Origin: Xanthomonas theicola
Lineage (GTDB): Bacteria; Pseudomonadota; Gammaproteobacteria; Xanthomonadales; Xanthomonadaceae
Length of the DNA: 64,000 nt
NCBI RefSeq assembly: GCF_014236795.1
Contig: NZ_CP049017.1
Location: 102,001-166,000 of the forward strand
Reading direction: 5' to 3'
Program-made: the position numbers and the translations under genes
Part shown: piece by piece, positions 32,354 to 50,525 of the stretch
Layout of the letters: each line of letters begins with the position of its first letter
Position numbering within the stretch: position 1 is the first letter of the stretch
The notes under the pieces: model-generated
Told to the model about the DNA's origin: nothing
The model's database searches: none
What the model saw: the letters and a program-made list of their open reading frames with translations, nothing else

Positions 32354-33994
32354 ATGCAACGGGACCTGCCCGCATTCGCCACGCATGTGGTCGACAACCA
32401 GCCGCCGCCGTTCGAGCCGCGCGACCTGTGGGCCGACGATGCGGTGCTGCGCGCGGCGGTCGCGCGCGAGGGCGGTGACGCGTTCGCCGCGCGACTGGCG
32501 CAATACGGCGCGCTCGCCGGCGACACGCTGTACCGGCTCGGCTTCGACGCCAACCGCGACCGGCCGCGGTTGCGCACGCACGACCGCTATGGGCACCGCA
32601 TCGATACGGTCGAATTCCATCCGGCTTACCACCAGTTGCTGGCGGCGGCCAAGCGCCACGGCGTGGCCGGCCTGTCCTGGCACACGCCGCAGCCGGGCGC
32701 GCATGTGGCCCGAGCGGCGTTGAGTTATCTGCACCACCAGGCCGAGGCCGGTACCAGCTGTCCGCTGACCATGACCCACGCCGCGGTCGCGGTGTTGCGC
32801 CAGGAAGCGGCGCTGCGCGACTGGGCGGACAAGGCCGCCGCGCCGCACTACGACCCGCGCGACGTGCCGATCGTCGACAAGGCCGGCATTACCCTGGGCA
32901 TGGGCATGACCGAGAAGCAGGGCGGCTCGGACGTGCGCAGCAATGCCACCGTCGCCACGCCGCTGGGCCGCGATGGTGCATACGCGTTGGTGGGGCACAA
33001 GTGGTTCTTCTCCGCGCCGATGTCCGACGGCTTCCTGGTGCTGGCGCAGGCGCCGGGCGGACTGAGCTGCTTCCTGCTGCCGCGGCGCCTGCCCGACGGC
33101 CAACTCAACGCACTGCGCCTGATGCGGCTGAAGGACAAGCTCGGCGACTGGTCGAACGCGTCCGGTGAGGTGGAATTCGCCGGTGCCTGGGCGCAACGCA
33201 TCGGCGAAGAGGGGCGCGGCATGGCGCGCATCATCGGCATGGTGATGCTGACCCGGCTGGACTGCATGCTCGCCGCCGCCGCGCAGATGCGCATGGCGCT
33301 GGCGCAGGCGCTGCATCATGCGCGGCACCGCCTCGTGTTCGGCAAGCGCCTGGTGGAGCAGCCGTTGATGCGCAACGTGCTCGCCGACTTGGCGATCGAG
33401 TCCGAGGCCGCCACCGCGTTCGCCTTGCGTGTGGCGCGCGCGATGGATGCGGCCGAGCGCGATCCGGTCCAAGCCGCGTTCGCGCGCATCGCTACCGCGC
33501 TGGGCAAGTATTGGCTGTGCAAGCGCGCGCCGGCCTTCGTCAACGAAGCGCAGGAATGCCTCGGCGGTGCCGGCTATGTCGAGGAATCGATCCTGCCGCG
33601 GCTGTACCGGCAGGCGCCGTTGAATTCGATCTGGGAAGGCAGCGGCAACATCCAGTGCCTGGACGTGCTGCGTGCGCTGGCGCGCGAGCCGGGCAGCGCG
33701 GCGGCGCTGCTGGGCGAATTGGAAACCGCGGCCGGCGCGAGCGCGGACTACGATGCCGCGCTGGATGCGCTGCGCGTGCCGCTGGCCGGCGACGGCGGCC
33801 TGGACGAGTACGCCGCGCGGCGCCTCGCCGAGCGCCTCGCGCTGGCGCTGCAGGCCGCGTTGCTGCTGCGCAGCGCCAGCCCGGCCGCGGCCGCATTCGT
33901 GCGCAGCCGCCTGGCCGGTGCGCACGGGCTGGCGTTCGGTACGCTGGAGGCGGATGTGCCGGTCGAGGAACTGCTGGCGCGTGCATTGCCGTAA
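32354..33994 (+). CDS. aidB: AidB-like acyl-CoA dehydrogenase
   Basis: The 546-residue flavoprotein has the extended N-terminal region typical of AidB (VVDNQPPPFEPRDLWADDAV) and the FAD-binding segment LGMGMTEKQGGSDVRSNATV near residue 180. The C-terminal substrate/FAD block VNEAQECLGGAGYVEESILP near 395 is followed by LYRQAPLNSIWEGSGNIQCL. AidB is induced by alkylating agents in E. coli and binds DNA. Its divergent placement next to the DNA-repair operon supports a repair link, though fatty-acid catabolism remains possible. Confidence 0.88.
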   Translation: MQRDLPAFATHVVDNQPPPFEPRDLWADDAVLRAAVAREGGDAFAARLAQYGALAGDTLYRLGFDANRDRPRLRTHDRYGHRIDTVEFHPAYHQLLAAAKRHGVAGLSWHTPQPGAHVARAALSYLHHQAEAGTSCPLTMTHAAVAVLRQEAALRDWADKAAAPHYDPRDVPIVDKAGITLGMGMTEKQGGSDVRSNATVATPLGRDGAYALVGHKWFFSAPMSDGFLVLAQAPGGLSCFLLPRRLPDGQLNALRLMRLKDKLGDWSNASGEVEFAGAWAQRIGEEGRGMARIIGMVMLTRLDCMLAAAAQMRMALAQALHHARHRLVFGKRLVEQPLMRNVLADLAIESEAATAFALRVARAMDAAERDPVQAAFARIATALGKYWLCKRAPAFVNEAQECLGGAGYVEESILPRLYRQAPLNSIWEGSGNIQCLDVLRALAREPGSAAALLGELETAAGASADYDAALDALRVPLAGDGGLDEYAARRLAERLALALQAALLLRSASPAAAAFVRSRLAGAHGLAFGTLEADVPVEELLARALP

Positions 33995-40578: not shown

Positions 40579-40767
40579 GCCGGGCGTCGCCGGTCGCAGC
40601 GCAAACAGGCCCGCGTGCGTGGAAGGCTGTGGCGCGGGCCATAGCGCGTCGGCGCGTCGAAGGCGGCCGGCTGCGGTCTTTAGGAGGGGGTCGGCGTTGC
40701 CGGTACCATGTTCGCGTTCGATGCCATGCATCTGGCCCACGTCCGCGCCAACGCGCATTCCAGAGGA

Positions 40768-41466
40768 ATGTCCATGTGGTCTGCCATCAGTAACTTCGGC
40801 GACGCGGCGCTGACCCTGCCGTTGGCCGCGACCTGTTGCCTGTGGCTGGCGATCGGCGGGTCCGGGTGGCGGGCCGCGTGGACATGGCTGGGGCTGTTGG
40901 CCGCGGCCGCGTTGCTGGTCGGTGCGACCAAGATCCTCTATGCGGGCTGCGGCGTGGAATGGCGCGCCATCGATTTCCGGGTCATCAGCGGCCACACCAT
41001 GCTCGCCGCGGGCGTGTGGCCGATGGCCTGCATGCTGGGCACGGACGGCAGCGGCAGGCCGCTGGCATCGCGGCTGGCGCTGGCATGCGGCTTCGTGCTC
41101 GCCACCGCGATCACCACCGCGCGCGCGTTCGACCGGGCACATAGCGTGTCCGAGGTGATCGTCGGCCTGGCGGTCGGTGCGCTGGTCACCGTGTGTTTCC
41201 TGCGTTGGCGCGGCGTGCCGAGCGTGGTGCCGGGGCGCCGCCCGTACGCGCTCGCTTCACTGCTGTTGGTGAGCGTGGCCATGTACGGGCAGCACGCGCC
41301 GATCCAGAGGGCGATCCAGAAGTATTCGCCGTACCTGTGCCGCGGCGCCGCGTCCACATCGGCTTCGCTCGTCCTATGCCCGATCTTTACCGGCGCGCTG
41401 CTGCACCCGTGGCGTTGGCCGCCGTGGCCGCTTGCAGGAGCACGTCATGCCAGAGCAATCCAGTAG
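40768..41466 (+). CDS. PAP2-family membrane phosphatase
   Basis: The 232-residue membrane protein has five to six hydrophobic segments. It contains the PAP2 blocks DFRVISGHTMLAAGVWPMAC (SGH, near residue 75) and ARAFDRAHSVSEVIVGLAVG (RxxxxxH, near 115). Such enzymes dephosphorylate lipid phosphates such as undecaprenyl pyrophosphate. The usual first motif KxxxxxxRP is not evident, so activity is uncertain. ATG 40768 is chosen; an in-frame ATG at 40708 would add 20 residues that do not resemble a signal. Its 3' end overlaps the next gene by 20 bp. Confidence 0.8.
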   Translation: MSMWSAISNFGDAALTLPLAATCCLWLAIGGSGWRAAWTWLGLLAAAALLVGATKILYAGCGVEWRAIDFRVISGHTMLAAGVWPMACMLGTDGSGRPLASRLALACGFVLATAITTARAFDRAHSVSEVIVGLAVGALVTVCFLRWRGVPSVVPGRRPYALASLLLVSVAMYGQHAPIQRAIQKYSPYLCRGAASTSASLVLCPIFTGALLHPWRWPPWPLAGARHARAIQ

Positions 41467-42079
41467 CAGGCGCGCCGCGCGCGCCAAGCGCGAGGGCAAG
41501 GCCGGCAGCACGCAGGCCGGCGCATTCGTCCGCGAAGAGATCGAACGCGTCCGCGCAGGCAAGACCCAGGTGAAGTCGGCCAAGCAGGCGATCGCGATCG
41601 GCTTGTCCAAGGCGCGCCGCGCCGGGGTCAAGACCGGTGCGTCCAGGACCGCCTCCACCTCCACCCGGAACAAGGCGGCGCAGGAAGAAGCGCAGGGCGC
41701 GACGGCCGCCAAGCCGTCGCCGACCCGTTCGCGCGGTGCCAAGCAGGCGCTGAAGACCGCCAGCAAGGGCGCCACCGCCACCGTTGGCAAGCAGGCCTTG
41801 TCCAGGCAGGCCAGGCAGGCGGCGGGCAAGCGGTCCGCGGCCTGCCGCTCGGCCGCGGCGAAAAAGGCCGCGCAGACCAGGCGCGGTGCCGTGCGCAAGG
41901 CTGCGGCCAGGAATGCGGCCAGCAGCCCCGGTGGTGGTGCGGCGAAGACGGCCGCGCGGCGCTCGCCGGTCGGGAAACCGGCAGCCAGGAGGACCGCGGC
42001 GCAGCGGGCGGCCGCGGACAAGGGCACGGCCAGGCAGGCGACCGGCGTCGAGCGCGCACGCGGGAAGGCCGAGGACTGA
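41447..42079 (+). CDS. Lysine/alanine-rich histone-H1-like protein (DUF6496-like)
   Basis: The 210-residue protein is strongly basic, with many SRxAxxAKR and [16 protein letters not shown] units. Its more ordered N-terminal part contains [20 protein letters not shown] followed by [17 protein letters not shown], which resembles proteins annotated as DUF6496. The C-terminal two thirds look like the tail of bacterial histone-H1-like DNA-compaction proteins. A GGAG ribosome-binding site at 41437 supports the ATG at 41447. A role in nucleoid structure is inferred from composition only. Confidence 0.75.
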
Positions 42080-42155
42080 AGGCGGGGAGACGGTGGAGGC
42101 CGGCGACCGATGCGCTGGCGGCCGGCCGGCGCCGCGGGTCGGCGCGGTCGCGGGC

Positions 42156-42506
42156 TCAAAGTTCGGTGTACTTGGTGATGCGGCCCTTGGCGCGCTCCAC
42201 CGGATATCTGGCCGCGTTGACCTGCAGCTTGCGCTGCGCCGCGTCGATCGGATCGATGCCCAGCTTGTCGCACAGCTGTACCAGATACAGCAGCACGTCG
42301 GCGATCTCGCTGCCGACCTGGGCCTTCTTGTCGTCGGCGAGCCGCCGGCTCTGCGCGTCGTCCAGCCACTGGAAATGCTCCAGCAGTTCCGCGGCCTCGA
42401 CCGCCAGCGCAGCGGCCAGGTTGCGCGGGCTGTGGAACTGGCCCCAGTCGCGCGCCTCGGCAAAGGCGCGCTGGGCGGTCTGCAGGTCGTGGAGGCTGTC
42501 GGGCAT
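42156..42506 (-). CDS. MazG-like nucleotide pyrophosphohydrolase
   Basis: The 116-residue all-alpha NTP pyrophosphohydrolase has the EExxE-type magnesium site [13 protein letters not shown] near residue 36 and the ExxD site [20 protein letters not shown] near 65. It is close in length to RS21-C6/dCTP pyrophosphatase-type enzymes, which remove modified or excess dNTPs. The C-terminal motif [20 protein letters not shown] is typical of this small group. It is a single gene. Confidence 0.92.
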
Positions 42507-43302: not shown

Positions 43303-44466
43303 ATGCAAGCACTCACCTATCACGGCACCAAAGACGTGCGCGTGGAAACCGTTCCCGATCCGGTGCTGATCGAGGCCGACGACATCGTGCTGCGGGTCAC
43401 CGCCACTGCGATCTGCGGTTCCGACCTGCACCTGTACCGCGGCAAGATTCCCGACCTGCACAGTGGCGATGTGCTGGGCCACGAGTTCATGGGCGTGGTC
43501 GAGGACGTCGGCCCAGACGTGCAGCGGGTGAAGAAGGGCGATCGCGTGGTGATCCCGTTCGTGATCGCCTGCGGCGAGTGCTTCCACTGCCGCCTGACCG
43601 AATACGCCGCCTGCGAGACCTCCAACACCGGCAAGGGCGCGGCGCTGAACCAGAAGGGCATCCGCCCGCCGGCCGCGCTGTTCGGCTACAGCCACCTGTA
43701 CGGCGGCGTGGCCGGCGGCCAGGCCGAGTACGTGCGCGTGCCCAAGGCCAACGTCGGCCCGCTGGTGGTGCCGGACGTGCTGCACGACGAACAGGTGCTG
43801 TTCCTGTCCGACATCCTGCCCACCGGCTACCAGGCCGCGCTCAATGCCGGCGTGCGCCAGGGCAGCACGGTGGCGATTTTCGGCGCAGGCCCGGTGGGGC
43901 TGATGACCGCCGCGTGCTGCCGCATGCTCGGCGCCGAGCGCATTTTCATGGTCGACCGCTATCCGTACCGGCTACAGTTCGCGCAGAAGACCTATGGCGT
44001 GCTCCCGCTCAATTTCGAGGAGATCGACGATCCGGCCGACATCATCGTCGGCCAGACCGACGGCCGCGGCGTGGATGCGAGCATCGACGCGGTCGGCTTC
44101 GAGGCCAAGGGCAGCACGGTGGAGACGGTGATGGCCACGCTGAAGCTGGAAGGCAGCAGCGGCACCGCGCTGCGCCAGTGCATCGCGGCCACGCGCCGCG
44201 GCGGCACCATCAGCGTGCCCGGCGTGTATGCCGGCTTCATCCATGGCTTCCTGTTCGGCGATGCCTTCGACAAGGGGCTGAGCTTCAAGATGGGCCAGAC
44301 CCACGTGCAGCGCTTCATGCCGGAGTTGCTGGAGCATATCGGTGCAGGCCGGCTGGCGCCGGGCGAGATCATCTCCCATCACATGCCGCTGGCGCAGGCC
44401 GCCGATGGCTATGCCGTCTTCGACAAGAAGGAGCAGGACTGCCGCAAGGTGGTCCTGACCCCGTGA
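43303..44466 (+). CDS. Zinc-dependent alcohol dehydrogenase (FDH-like group)
   Basis: This 387-residue medium-chain dehydrogenase has catalytic-zinc ligands in [11 protein letters not shown] (Cys near residue 38) and [20 protein letters not shown] (His-Glu near 62). The structural-zinc-like segment is [15 protein letters not shown], and the Rossmann motif is [20 protein letters not shown] near 190. The long insertion after the zinc loop, with [20 protein letters not shown], is typical of glutathione-independent formaldehyde dehydrogenase-like proteins, but the substrate cannot be assigned. ATG 43303 matches the conserved start [20 protein letters not shown]. Confidence 0.9.
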
Positions 44467-44524: not shown

Positions 44525-45510
44525 TTGATCGACCTGCTTGCTCCTGCCGGACAGGGTGGCGCCTGCGCGCTGCGCGGCGCCGCCCTGGAGGGGCTCGCGC
44601 GCCATCCGCAACTGCCGCTGCCCGGCCATGGCGATACCCTGGAGCGCTGGCGGATCCTGGCCGGGATCGCCGCCACCGACGTGTGCCTGGCCAAGGTGCT
44701 GGAAGCGCACTACGACGCGCAGGCGATCCTGGCCGAACTCGGCGCGCCGCCGGCGTCGCCCGCACAGCTGTTCGCGGTCTGGGCGGCCGAAGCGCCGGAC
44801 GCGCGCCTGGCCTACCGCGGCGACACGGCGCAGCGCGGTCAGGTGCACGGCCGCAAGGCCTGGTGTTCGGGCGCCGGCATCGTCGACGCGGCGCTGCTCA
44901 CCGCGCACGACCAGGATCGCCAGCAACTGGTGCAGGTGCAGTTGCGCCAGCCGGGCATCGCGATCGACGCGCAGGCGTGGGCGGCGGTCGGCATGGCGCG
45001 CGTGGTCAGCGGGCCGGTGACGTTCGCCGCCGTGCCTGCGACCGCGCTCGGGGCGCGCCGGGCCGGTACCTGTCGCGTCCGGGCTTCTGGCACGGCGGCG
45101 CCGGGATCGCCGCCTGCTGGTTCGGCGCGGCGACGGCGGTGGCCGAGCGCCTGCGCGCGCACCCCAAGCTGCCGCGCGACGCGCATGCCGCCATGCACCT
45201 GGGCGCGATCGACCAGCAGCTCGGCGCCGCGCGCGCGCTGCTGCGCGAACTGGCCGCGGCCATCGACGCTGCGCCCGCCCAGGATCACCGGCACGCGGTG
45301 ATCCGGCTGCGTTCGTTCGTGGAGCGCGCCGCGACCGACGTGCTCGATCGGGTCGGCCGCGCGCTGGGGCCGGCGCCGCTGTGCAGCGATCGCGCGCACG
45401 CGCTGCGCTGCGCCGATCTTGCCGTGTTCGTGCGCCAGAGCCATGCCGAACACGATTGGGCGGCCCTGGGCCAGGCGCTGGGCGAGCAGGTGCAGCCATG
45501 GCGCCTGTGA
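44525..45510 (+). pseudogene. Acyl-CoA dehydrogenase-like protein, one frameshift
   Basis: Frame 1 (from TTG 44525) gives LERWRILAGIAATDVCLAKV, LAYRGDTAQRGQVHGRKAWC and MARVVSGPVTFAAVPATALG. Near 45055 the frame changes to GRYLSRPGFWHGGAGIAACW, GAIDQQLGAARALLRELAAA and RHAVIRLRSFVERAATDVLD to a stop at 45510. A single indel in ggggcgcgccgggcc explains it. The combined protein is about 328 residues with the acyl-CoA dehydrogenase fold, shorter than catabolic enzymes. It is the first gene of a four-gene operon whose other three genes are intact. A sequencing error is possible. Confidence 0.75.
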
Positions 45511-46259
45511 CCGCGCCGCCGATCCACGGCGACGGCACGCCCGAGTCGGCATGGCAGCGCTCGCCATGGCTGGCGGCGTTGCCGCAGCGCCGGGTCGAGG
45601 ATCTGATCGCCGGTGCACGGCGGTTGCTGGTTGTGTCGCCGCATCCGGACGACGAGGCGCTGGGCTGCGGCGGTGCGGTCGCCTGCGCGCGGCGGCTGCG
45701 CGTGCCGGTGCGCCTGATCGCGGTGACCGACGGCGAAGCCTGCTATCCGGACGATCCGTACTGGACGCCGCAGCGCCTGCGCGCCGTGCGCCGCGCCGAA
45801 CTGGTCGCCGCGGCGCGCTGCCTGGGCCTGGACGCCGCTGCGATCTGCCACCTGCGCGTCCCCGACGGCCAGGTCGGCCAGCGCGAGTTCGTGCTCGCCG
45901 AGCGCATCCATGCGCAGCTCCACGCCGGCGACCTGGCGCTGACCACCTGGTGCGGCGACGGCCACCCGGATCACGAGGCCACCGCGCGCGCGGTGCGCCG
46001 CGCCGTCGCCGCCAGCGACGCGCGCATGGCCGAGTTCCCGGTATGGGCCTGGCATTGGCTGGATGCCGATGCCCGACAGCCGGCCCTGCACGGCGCGGTC
46101 CGCTACACCCTGGACGCCGCCGACTGGCAGGCCAAGCAACAGGCGCTGCGCTGCTTCGCCTCGCAACGGGGCACGGCACCACCGCCGGTGCCGGCGCCGA
46201 TCCTGCCGCCGCAGGTGCTGCAACGCTTCGCCCGCCGTTTCGAGGTCTTCCTGGCATGA
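45498..46259 (+). CDS. PIG-L family N-acetylglucosamine-type deacetylase
   Basis: This 253-residue zinc hydrolase has the metal site LLVVSPHPDDEALGCGGAVA near residue 43 and the third-ligand block WCGDGHPDHEATARAVRRAV near 155. PIG-L enzymes remove acetyl groups from GlcNAc-linked lipids, mycothiol or bacillithiol precursors and related glycosides. The 12-bp overlap with the dehydrogenase and the 4-bp ATGA overlap with the methyltransferase indicate one transcript. Its substrate is presumably made by the GT2 at the end of the operon, which is inference. Confidence 0.9.
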   Translation: MAPVTAPPIHGDGTPESAWQRSPWLAALPQRRVEDLIAGARRLLVVSPHPDDEALGCGGAVACARRLRVPVRLIAVTDGEACYPDDPYWTPQRLRAVRRAELVAAARCLGLDAAAICHLRVPDGQVGQREFVLAERIHAQLHAGDLALTTWCGDGHPDHEATARAVRRAVAASDARMAEFPVWAWHWLDADARQPALHGAVRYTLDAADWQAKQQALRCFASQRGTAPPPVPAPILPPQVLQRFARRFEVFLA

Positions 46260-46852
46260 ATCCGGTCCAGCAGTATTTCGCCGACATCTACCGCGGTGAC
46301 GATCCGTTCGGCTACCGCGAACGCTGGTACGAGGCGCGCAAGCGCGAGTTGTTGCTGGCTTGCCTGCCGCGCGCGCGCTTCGAGCGCGCCTGGGAACTGG
46401 GCTGTTCCAACGGCGAGCTGACCGCGGCGCTGGCGCCGCGCTGCGCCACGCTGCTGGGCACCGACCTGTCCGCGCGTGCGGTGGCCCTGGCCGCGCGGCG
46501 CAATGCCGGCAACGCGCACGTGCGCGTACAGCAGGCAGAGCATCCGCGCAGTTGGCCCCAGGGCCGCTTCGACCTGATCGTGTTCAGCGAGGTCGGCTAC
46601 TACCTGCCGTTGCCGCTGCTGCAGGAATGCGCGCAGCGCCTGCGCGATTCGCTGACTGCGCAAGGTGTGCTCGTCGCATGCCACTGGTTGCATCCGTTCG
46701 CCCAGGCGCGCATGGGCGGGCGCGCGGTGCACGCTTGCCTGGCGCAGCGCCTGCAGCGACCGCGGCTGCTGCGCTACGAGGACGACGACGTGCTGCTCGA
46801 AGCCTGGGCCACGACCGCGTATTCGGTCGCTGCCGCGGAGCAGCTGCGGTGA
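46256..46852 (+). CDS. NodS-like SAM-dependent methyltransferase
   Basis: The 198-residue class I methyltransferase opens MNPVQQYFADIYRGDDPFGY, with RERWYEARKRELLLACLP next. It has the SAM motif AWELGCSNGELTAALAPRCA near residue 45 and motif II/III LLGTDLSARAVALAARRN. FDLIVFSEVGYYLP, near 105, replaces the usual post-motif. The opening and the ELGCSxGELTxxLAxRC pattern are those of NodS-type proteins, which N-methylate a glucosamine residue of Nod factor. Pairing with a deacetylase fits methylation of a freed amine, but the substrate is unproven. Confidence 0.9.
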   Translation: MNPVQQYFADIYRGDDPFGYRERWYEARKRELLLACLPRARFERAWELGCSNGELTAALAPRCATLLGTDLSARAVALAARRNAGNAHVRVQQAEHPRSWPQGRFDLIVFSEVGYYLPLPLLQECAQRLRDSLTAQGVLVACHWLHPFAQARMGGRAVHACLAQRLQRPRLLRYEDDDVLLEAWATTAYSVAAAEQLR

Positions 46853-47544
46853 TCGCGGTCCTGGTTCCGGCGCACGACGAGGAAGCCCTGATCGGCGCCT
46901 GCCTGCGCTCGCTGGCGCTGGCGGCGCAATGCACCGGCCTGCGCGGCGAGGTGGTGCAGGTGTTCGTCGCACTGGACCGGTGCAGCGACGGCACCGCCGC
47001 GATCGTCGCCGCCCACGGGGCGCAGGCGATCGCGCTGCACGCCGGCAACGTCGGCAGCGCGCGCGCGGCGGCGGCGCAGGCCGCGCTGGATGCCGGTGCG
47101 CGCTGGCTGGCCTGCACCGACGCCGATTCGGTGGTGCCGGCGAACTGGCTGTCGGCGCAACTGGACTGCGCCAGCGACGCGTTCTGCGGCATCGTCGCTG
47201 TGACCGATTGGGACGACTACGACACGGCGATGCGCGACGCCTACCATGCCGGCGCATGCCGCAGCGACGACCACCCGCACGTGCACGGCGCCAATCTGGG
47301 CGTCAGCGCCGCGCTGTACCGGCGCTGCGGCGGGTTCCTGCCGCTGGCCGCGCACGAGGACGTGGCGCTGGTGGAGGCGCTGGTGCGCGTGCATGCGCGC
47401 ATCGCGCGCCGCGCGCAGCCGGTGGTGGTCACCAGCGCCCGCCGCGTGGCGCGCGCGCGCGGCGGCTTCAGCGATTACCTGAAGCAGATGGAACGCAGCC
47501 TGGCCGTGTCGCTGTTGCCGGCGCCGGGCGACGCGCTGGCCTGA
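46849..47544 (+). CDS. Family 2 glycosyltransferase
   Basis: The 231-residue soluble GT-A enzyme starts at GTG 46849 (VIAVLVPAHDEEALIGACLR). It has the nucleotide-binding acidic site VFVALDRCSDGTAAIVAAHG near residue 40, the DxD metal site CTDADSVVPANWLSAQL near 88 and an acceptor-side block GGFLPLAAHEDVALVEALVR near 160. There are no transmembrane helices. The start overlaps the methyltransferase stop in a GTGA arrangement. It is the last gene of the operon and would attach the sugar that the deacetylase and methyltransferase then modify. Confidence 0.9.
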   Translation: MIAVLVPAHDEEALIGACLRSLALAAQCTGLRGEVVQVFVALDRCSDGTAAIVAAHGAQAIALHAGNVGSARAAAAQAALDAGARWLACTDADSVVPANWLSAQLDCASDAFCGIVAVTDWDDYDTAMRDAYHAGACRSDDHPHVHGANLGVSAALYRRCGGFLPLAAHEDVALVEALVRVHARIARRAQPVVVTSARRVARARGGFSDYLKQMERSLAVSLLPAPGDALA

Positions 47545-48277: not shown

Positions 48278-50383
48278 TCAGGCGAGCAGGCGCAGCTTCG
48301 GCTCGCGGTCCCATTGGCGGGTCTTGGCCGCCTCGACGAAGCCCTTGCTGTTGCCGGCGTCGAGCACCCCGGCGTCCTTGGCCACGTTGCCGGCCTTCAG
48401 CAGCGGCTGCGCGCCGGCGTCGGCGGCGATCGCCTTCAGGTGCGCGAACGCGTTGCTGACGAAGTCCACTGCTGCCGACTCCTTGCTCAACTGCTTGCCG
48501 GCCTCGGCCGAGAGGATCACGCCGATCGCGTCGAAGATGAAGGACGGGGTGCCGGCCAGTTGGCCGTCGGCCGGCAGCTTCTTGCCGTCGCTGAGCGTGG
48601 CGCCGCCTAGCTTGGGCGCGACGATCTTCACCGTGGCGCCGGCGGCCTCGGCGGCCTTGCGCAGCGCCTTGATCGCGGCCGCGTCGGAGCCGTCGTGGAT
48701 CAGGATGCCGACCGTGCGGCCCTTGAGCGTGTCCTTCATCTTGCCGATGATCTGCAGCGCCGGCGACGGCGGCTGGTCGGTCGGGGCCACCGTGGCCGGC
48801 GGCGCCGGCGGCAGCGCGTCCAGGCCGAGGCCGTCGGCCACGCGCTGGGCCAGCCCGGGGTCGACGTGGCGCAGGTGGCCGACCACGGCCTCGCGCACGT
48901 GCGCGGTCTCCACCTTGGACAGCTCGAACACCAGCGCCGAGGCGATGTGCGCCTGCTCCGGCTTGGTCTGGCTGCGGAAGAACTGGCGCGCCTGGCTGTA
49001 GTGGTCGGCGAAGCGCTCGGCGCGGATGCGGCCCTTGGCGCCGTCCTCGGCCGGGGTGGCGTGGCTGCGGAAGCCGCGCGGCGCCTCGCGCGGCGAATCG
49101 GCCTGCAGCGAGCTCGGCTCGTAGGCCACGCGGCCCCTGGGCTGGCCCATCTGCATCTTGCCGTCGCGCTGGTTGTTGGCGAACGGGCACTTGGGCGCGT
49201 TGACCGGGATCTGGTGGAAGTTCGGCCCGCCCAGGCGGATCAGCTGGGTGTCCAGGTAGGAGAACAGCCGGCCCTGCAGCAGCGGGTCGTTGCTGAAGTC
49301 GATGCCGGGCACGATGTTGGCCGGGCAGTACGCCACCTGCTCGGTCTCGGCGAAGAAATTGTCCGGCCAGCGGTCCAGCACCATGCGCCCGACGATCCGC
49401 AGCGGCACCAGTTCCTCGGGGATCAGCTTGGTCGCATCGAGATGGTCGAACGGGAACTTCTCCGCCTCGGCCTCGGTGAACAGCTGCACGCCGAACTCCC
49501 ATTCCGGGAAGTCGCCCTGCTGCACCGACTCGAACAGATCGCGGCGGTGGAAGTCCGGGTCGGCGCCGGCGATCTTGACTGCCTCGTCCCAGACCGTGGA
49601 CTGCAGCCCGAGCTTGGGCCGCCAGTGGAACTTCACGAAGGTGCTCTCGCCGTGCTCGTTGATCAGGCGGAAGCTGTGCACGCCGAAGCCCTCGATCATG
49701 CGCAGCGAGCGCGGGATCGCGCGGTCGCTCATCGCCCACATGATCATGTGCAGCGATTCCGGGGTCAGCGAGATGAAGTCCCAGAACGTGTCGTGCGCAC
49801 TGGCGGCCTGCGGGAAGCCGCGGTCCGGCTCCATCTTCACCGAGTGGATCAGGTCGGGGAACTTGATCGCGTCCTGGATGAAGAACACCGGGATGTTGTT
49901 GCCGACCAGGTCCCAGTTGCCTTCCTTGGTGTAGAACTTGACCGAGAAGCCGCGCACGTCGCGCGGCGTGTCCACCGAACCGGCGCCGCCGGCGACGGTG
50001 GAGAAGCGGGTGAACAGCGGCGTCTTCTCGCCGACCTCGGTCAGCAGCTTGGCGGTGGTGTACTTGGCCAGCGACTTGGTCAGCTCGAAGTAGCCGTGCA
50101 CCGCGCTGCCGCGCGCATGCACGATGCGCTCGGGAATGCGCTCGTGGTCGAAGTGGGTGATCTTCTCGCGCAGGATGAAGTCTTCCAGCAACGTCGGCCC
50201 GCGCGGGGCGGCGCGCAGCGAGTTCTGGTTGTCCGCCACCGGGATGCCCTGGTTGGTGGTCAGCGGCGGATGCGCGCCGCCGGCGTTCTGGTGCAGTTCG
50301 TCGCCGCTGCCGCGCGACTCCTGCGAGGCGCCGCGCGGCGTGGCGGAGGACGGGGCGTGCGTGCGGGGCTTGCTGGCGGCCAT
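48278..50383 (-). CDS. katE: Large-subunit catalase (HPII/KatE type)
   Basis: The 701-residue clade 2 catalase decomposes hydrogen peroxide. It has a long N-terminal extension (1-60), the active-site histidine in [20 protein letters not shown] near residue 90, and the conserved asparagine in [20 protein letters not shown] near 160. The haem-ligand tyrosine lies in [20 protein letters not shown] near 375. A C-terminal flavodoxin/DJ-1-like domain follows (about 540-701; [20 protein letters not shown]). The start [20 protein letters not shown] is chosen at 50383; upstream in-frame codons lack a better start. It is a single gene. Confidence 0.95.
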
Positions 50384-50525
50384 GGGAATGCTCCGGGTGG
50401 CGGGATGCGGGCGTTGGACCCATGATCCTTGCCCGCGTGGCGTGAATGCACCGTCGTGCTCGCGCACGCCGCCGCGGGCATGCGATGCGCGTGGGCGTTA
50501 TCGCATCACACGATCGGACACGCGA

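Follow-up and report, generated by a model that had tools for sequence, protein, structure and literature searches.

The pathways for mycothiol and bacillithiol act on a small N-acetylglucosamine (GlcNAc) glycoside, starting with a glycosyltransferase, in both cases of family GT4, and a PIG-L family enzyme. NodS and the gentamicin N-3'' methyltransferase methylate sugar amines. Trehalose operons have been studied for desiccation and osmotic survival in Pseudomonas, and the P. syringae treY/Z operon deletion ends at glgX (PMC8982409); in the main text of that paper the terms deacetylase, acyl-CoA, methyltransferase and glycosyltransferase never occur. Here, a compact unit of four genes was analyzed in a 64,000-nucleotide stretch of Xanthomonas theicola (contig NZ_CP049017.1, positions 102,001 to 166,000; the window), part of a 4.79-Mb assembly of two contigs. 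The unit encodes an acyl-CoA dehydrogenase (ACAD)-like protein, a PIG-L deacetylase, a methyltransferase (MT), and a glycosyltransferase of family GT2. Across genomes, these four conserved genes stand behind glgX, between otsA and otsB, or beside katE or ligD/ku. They are apparently undescribed, and the portions of the literature retrieved by gene combination contained no description of the four-gene cassette.

The four genes form a conserved cassette and a real compact operon. They lie on the plus strand in the order ACAD-like, PIG-L, MT, and GT2, each overlapping the next, by 13, 4, and 4 bp as read from the sequence. The original prediction, which had been made from the letters of the window, placed all four genes correctly, as gene coordinates and Pfam matches confirm; both of its 4-bp overlaps stand, but the first overlap had been given as 12 bp. 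The components are as follows.

44525..45301, plus strand, ACAD-like gene, first part (tblastn to seven intact relatives; PF02770 5.1e-5, under its cut-off)
45049..45510, plus strand, second part of the ACAD-like gene, in a different frame (90-93% identical to Xanthomonas relatives by tblastn)
45498..46259, plus strand, PIG-L family N-deacetylase (PF02585, 82.6 bits, 4.4e-23)
46256..46852, plus strand, class I S-adenosylmethionine methyltransferase of the wider NodS superfamily (PF08242 1.1e-11, the best Pfam match; PF13649; PF05401, the NodS Pfam family, 3.6e-9)
46849..47544, plus strand, small GT2 glycosyltransferase (PF00535, 41.7 bits, 1.5e-10)

The cassette is tentatively read, at somewhat less than an even chance, as an uncharacterized route to a small soluble, probably N-methylated glucosamine-type glycoside that serves under desiccation or oxidative stress, alongside or made from trehalose.

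Conservation was analyzed in a genome scan with the GT2 only, in which 240 stretches were confirmed and the best 80 of the 240 were taken as loci, titled Xanthomonas, Stenotrophomonas, Luteimonas, Pseudomonas, Variovorax, Acidovorax, Roseateles, Achromobacter, and others. The closest named relative of the GT2 among the loci kept was that of Xanthomonas bonasiae (88%). All four genes were present in 73 of the 80 loci and followed the order ACAD-PIGL-MT-GT2 in 71 of these, the exceptions being one locus with GT2 first and one with PIG-L last. The 4-bp overlap between MT and GT2 was kept in 69 of the 73 complete loci, with starts called mechanically. The remaining seven loci were without ACAD (L022), without PIG-L (L035 and L072), or had GT2 only (L044, L076, L081, and L084).

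In a phylum sample of 398 genomes, matches to ACAD or PIG-L were taken as strong at E<=1e-60, a cut-off chosen after the gap in the list was seen. ACAD matched in 32 genomes, 22 of them strongly, and GT2 in 21, all within the 22 strong-ACAD genomes (G158 is the one without GT2), giving a Fisher p of 5e-34, uncorrected for kinship. MT was found in 43 genomes, including all 22 with strong ACAD and one further genome of the same class (G348), and PIG-L in 41, with 19 of its 20 strong matches among the 22. In 19 of the 21 genomes, about 2.5 kb at most separated the start of GT2 from that of ACAD; in G257 and G269 they were on separate contigs yet both present, so the co-occurrence outlasts linkage. 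Co-conservation of the four families had been set beforehand as a test and was strongly passed, both in the 80 loci and in the phylum sample. Ten weaker ACAD matches (E 1e-24 to 1e-38), all from outside the class, had an MT at most 1.7 kb away in every case and a PIG-L in nine genomes, nearby in seven; none of the ten had the cassette GT2 at E<=1e-30, and two had weak GT2 matches nearby.

Within the genus the distribution was patchy, with PIG-L matched in the X. theicola genome itself and in 5 of 12 others, and in none of eight genomes from other genera of the order. Among plasmids, 33 records had a PIG-L match, of which nine were examined. The four genes stood in a row on plasmids of Pandoraea (two, the GT2 of one by tblastn only), Acinetobacter (two), and Comamonas. 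Those of Kitasatospora, Komagataeibacter, and Nostoc carried ACAD-PIGL-MT with a differing or doubtful glycosyltransferase, and that of Legionella lytica carried PIGL-MT-GT2 and then an ACAD-like gene, detected by tblastn only with no Pfam match. Some variants were also recorded. The G158 cluster (L164) has MT and an ACAD-like gene, lacks the cassette GT2, and carries two different glycosyltransferase-like genes upstream, a second PIG-L lies close downstream of the cassette in four genomes of one genus (L168, L173, L176, and L178), and in two records named Acinetobacter phage MD-2021a and filed as phages (H31 and H32) an ACAD-like gene adjoins an LmbE-like gene.

The genes surrounding the cassette, often ones for trehalose, catalase, or the repair of DNA breaks, suggest a role in stress survival. 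Near the 73 complete loci, the markers LigD (41 loci), Ku (31), a PF14518 DtpC-like protein (16), YbdK (13), GlgX (5), KatE (4), TreY (4), OtsA (2), and OtsB (2) were found, at least one of them in 53 loci, and in 40 of the 41 loci having it LigD shared the strand of the cassette and lay no more than 600 bp upstream. These counts are not independent, because most of the loci are from Pseudomonas. In the phylum sample, any of ten markers occurred in 12 of 22 cassette neighborhoods (up to 19 kb) versus 1 of 40 control regions (p=3e-6), and trehalose genes in 9 of 22 versus 1 of 40 (p=2e-4). The window itself is among the 22 neighborhoods, and leaving it out gives 11 of 21; three of the neighborhoods fall short of 19 kb. 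The control regions were positioned manually in 11 of the sampled genomes. At least 35% of a marker had to align in this comparison and at least 20% in the 73-locus count. Curated models were used to check example marker proteins, the neighbor tables exclude L001 and L007, and the GlgX match in L166 was only 22% identical.

Trehalose genes of two kinds stood in line with the cassette. The arrangement OtsA-ACAD-PIGL-MT-GT2-OtsB was contiguous in Acidovorax (L017) and on the Comamonas plasmid (L095), and in L036, L051, L053, and L067 a gap of 12-26 bp separated the stop of GlgX from the called start of the ACAD gene that follows it. The two Acinetobacter plasmids examined (L089 and L094) bring the cassette together with otsBA, an HPII-type catalase, and an iron-containing redox enzyme, which in L089 matches PF14518; the same island also holds DUF421, a major facilitator superfamily transporter, exonuclease VII, a Y-family polymerase, and an SOS peptidase. 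In the window, the cassette is flanked by two genes.

43303..44466, plus strand, zinc alcohol dehydrogenase, FdhA-like, under the equivalog cut-off; upstream neighbor, ending 58 bp before the cassette
48278..50467, minus strand, long HPII/KatE-type catalase, convergent downstream neighbor (PF00199, 601.6 bits; 946.6 bits on the HPII model, under its cut-off of 1102)

Upstream of the alcohol dehydrogenase, at 40708-42506, are a PAP2-like phosphatase, a DUF6496 protein, and a MazG-like gene, and a second ACAD C-terminal domain match, of the classical type, is found at 33212-33679.

The active sites of the deacetylase and the glycosyltransferase were examined in alignments of rows picked from the 80 loci (46, 38, 36, and 44 rows; ACAD-like 46, PIG-L 36, GT2 44), that of GT2 with L025 and L085 removed and L044, L076, and L081 added. 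PIG-L belongs to its family by score (82.6 bits versus a PF02585 gathering threshold of 28.2), and its catalytic and metal-binding motif H49, D51, D52, H156, D158, and H159 was invariant in all 36 sequences. Among its relatives in the PDB are diacetylchitobiose deacetylase, teicoplanin deacetylase, and MshB. The GT2 likewise exceeds the PF00535 threshold (41.7 versus 23.3 bits), with the motifs TDAD (DXD) and ED invariant in 44 sequences and H142, H144, and H146 conserved. Its sequence had no match in the PDB at 0.01; its predicted structure (predicted local distance difference test, pLDDT, 93.7) has a GT-A fold, and the Foldseek matches were led by TarS, solved with UDP-GlcNAc, followed by WrtF and TarP. 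Score, motifs, and fold all agree with the family given to this gene in the original prediction.

The MT had been called NodS-like, and this holds for the wider NodS superfamily, as the PF05401 match indicates, but not for true NodS. On the NodS model NF041650 it scored 52.5 bits against a cut-off of 300, compared to 333-352 bits for four true NodS proteins from three genomes of another class. Its best PDB match was 4isc (3e-41; titled only Methyltransferase), which we take to be of P. syringae origin, followed by NodS and the gentamicin N-3'' methyltransferase. In a 63-row tree, the MT grouped away from the NodS type, a result that had been named beforehand as refuting the prediction: the four true NodS formed a 100/99 clade and 39 cassette MTs, including that of Kitasatospora, a separate 99/99 clade, in a tree whose deepest split was weak (49/82), whose bootstrap had not settled, and in which row L140 was only partly extracted. 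The cassette MTs of Komagataeibacter, Nostoc, and Legionella fell outside the 39. True NodS was joined (98/92) to fusion proteins of about 1000 residues from another class (L139:1-2898 and L159:592-3480), that combine a GT2 and a NodS-type MT with a PF01522 deacetylase, and one true NodS locus had a chitin-synthase-like (NodC-like) gene upstream. Anti-phage defense was also considered; PADLOC gave only a partial match of the MT to mad2 (50.6 bits, 3.3e-14), and the ACAD-like protein, PIG-L, and GT2 matched none of its defense models.

The model of the ACAD-like protein (326 residues, pLDDT 90.8) has the full acyl-CoA dehydrogenase fold. In an alignment of distant sequences, the column of the catalytic glutamate, placed by the YEGT of one classical ACAD from the same genome, is glutamine in 46 of 46 family members, and the segment bearing the alternative catalytic glutamate is missing from the family. 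Judged by these residues, the protein is predicted not to be a working acyl-CoA dehydrogenase, and because the family is without the catalytic glutamate, the tailoring of an acyl chain that had been suggested for it is unlikely. A profile search of the PDB returned TdsC, DszC, and MsuC first (1.6e-11 to 6.2e-8, partial coverage), with dehydrogenases close behind and nitrososynthases as weak matches, and fold searches did not separate dehydrogenases from monooxygenases. A monooxygenase-like role is possible.

The frameshift noted at the outset in the first gene was confirmed, with the same two pieces found in the assembly and homology split at about 45052-45055. In the first frame, homology ends at about 45055 and the frame stays open to a stop at 45299-45301; in the second, it spans about 45052-45507. 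According to tblastn coordinates, both halves are in one frame in all seven other Xanthomonas loci (L002-L006, L008, and L009). The ratio of nonsynonymous to synonymous differences (pN/pS) of each piece in its own frame against five relatives was 0.11-0.34, versus 0.10-0.37 among the intact relatives themselves. Since the pieces evolve like intact relatives, the break appears to be either recent or a sequencing or assembly error. In one genome of the same genus (G005, L006), the cassette PIG-L matches in two out-of-frame pieces with one stretch missing and looks broken, which hints at occasional decay of the cassette in the genus.

From the unit, its co-occurrence and neighborhoods, the intact motifs of PIG-L and GT2, and the missing ACAD glutamate, all directly observed, we infer the substrates, acceptor, product, step order, function, and any flavin chemistry as follows. 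The GT2 would transfer an N-acetylhexosamine, most likely GlcNAc from UDP-GlcNAc, to a small acceptor, PIG-L would then take off the N-acetyl group, and the MT would methylate the freed amine. The ACAD-fold protein, with the dehydrogenase base lost and a flavin-monooxygenase-like profile, may oxidize the product or an intermediate. That genes of two unrelated trehalose pathways stand in a row with the cassette points to trehalose as a possible partner or acceptor. A definite product of this kind is distinctly doubtful: a trehalose-derived amino-sugar protectant, for example N-methyl-glucosaminyl trehalose, for which the GT2 would put GlcNAc on trehalose before deacetylation, methylation, and oxidation by the ACAD-fold flavoprotein. 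If true, such a product would be a widespread, unnoticed desiccation solute encoded on chromosomes and plasmids.

A stress pathway whose link to trehalose is merely shared regulation, with a product unrelated to trehalose, is somewhat unlikely. OtsA, TreY, and TreS are elsewhere in the X. theicola genome, and shared regulation would explain the linkage equally; the neighbor is KatE in the window and KatE or LigD/Ku at most Pseudomonas loci, and trehalose genes are common without the cassette (12 of 14 genomes). Against it stand the two non-homologous trehalose pathways, each of which is found colinear with the cassette and on its strand. The matches of the GT2 model to the teichoic-acid and polysaccharide transferases TarS, TarP, and WrtF would fit modification of the cell envelope, in which a lipid or glycan would receive a sugar from the GT2 and the other three proteins would modify that sugar. 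This is unlikely, given that the four-gene unit contains no flippase, polymerase, or lipid-carrier gene and that the neighbors are mostly stress and trehalose genes.

A low-molecular-weight antioxidant built in the manner of mycothiol or bacillithiol, by GlcNAc transfer, PIG-L deacetylation, and decoration, would agree with how those pathways open, with the catalase neighbor, and with the nearest NCBIfam models of PIG-L, BshB2 and BshB1. It is improbable, as the scores are far under the cut-offs (56.2 versus 195.25 and 43.8 versus 182.5 bits), PIG-L is under the MshB cut-off, too, and no cysteine ligase is present in the four-gene unit. The original prediction had likened the operon to rhizobial Nod-factor synthesis. 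Glycosyl transfer, N-deacetylation, and amine methylation remain plausible for these enzyme classes, but the specific parallel fails in detail, and a lipo-chitooligosaccharide pathway, despite the PF05401 match and the set of glycosyltransferase, deacetylase, and MT, is scarcely credible. NodS membership fails by score and tree, the deacetylase is PIG-L, the ACAD family is without its catalytic base, and stress genes make up the neighborhoods; no NodB-type deacetylase or NodA-type acyltransferase was found in the four-gene unit, the rest of the genome not having been searched for nod genes.

Several observations weigh against the proposed stress-protective glycoside. PIG-L was not found in L035 and L072, G275 had no strong PIG-L match and a divergent PIG-L beside the GT2 (PF02585, 36.6 bits), and no PIG-L motif was found in the 19-kb neighborhood of G342. 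No marker was present in the DNA examined around 20 of the 73 complete loci, and the LigD and Ku counts come mainly from Pseudomonas. In the comparison with control regions, markers were picked after other loci had been seen, the query for catalase was taken from the window itself, and four of the 22 cassette genomes belong to one genus. OtsA, TreY, and TreS are far from the cassette in X. theicola. Genome-wide presence of OtsA or TreY did not separate carriers of the cassette (21 of 22) from non-carriers (12 of 14). TreY alone was found in 17 of 22 carriers versus 4 of 14 non-carriers (p=0.005, weak and uncorrected for kinship), and TreS, with many matches partial or under the cut-off, was excluded from this comparison. 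True acyl-CoA dehydrogenases were also among the profile and fold matches of the ACAD-like protein. With ACAD broken here and PIG-L apparently broken in G005, the pathway may be dispensable in this genus.

If the cassette makes a protectant, it would be a missing part of bacterial survival of drying and oxidative stress, and an example of the acyl-CoA dehydrogenase fold put to another use. Compared with rhizobial nodB-nodC-nodS, the cassette shares a GT2, N-deacetylation, and an MT of the NodS superfamily, and its steps could follow the same order, but it differs in having PIG-L instead of the NodB type, a small GT2, an MT of another clade, an ACAD-like protein, and stress neighbors, and in having no acyltransferase in the unit. 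The GT2-NodS-polysaccharide deacetylase fusions (L139 and L159) physically link the same three activities, an independent linkage that favors the proposed reading; they differ in forming one long chain that has no ACAD part, a deacetylase of the PF01522 type, and an MT of another clade. The front ends of mycothiol and bacillithiol synthesis (MshA/MshB and BshA/BshB) likewise pair a glycosyltransferase with PIG-L on a small GlcNAc glycoside, whereas the cassette has a GT2, no cysteine addition, an additional MT and ACAD-like protein, and scores under the BshB and MshB cut-offs. Its enzymes are not trehalose enzymes, but in some genomes the cassette is set within the trehalose operons themselves, after glgX in glgA-treZ-malQ-treY-glgX or between otsA and otsB of otsAB.

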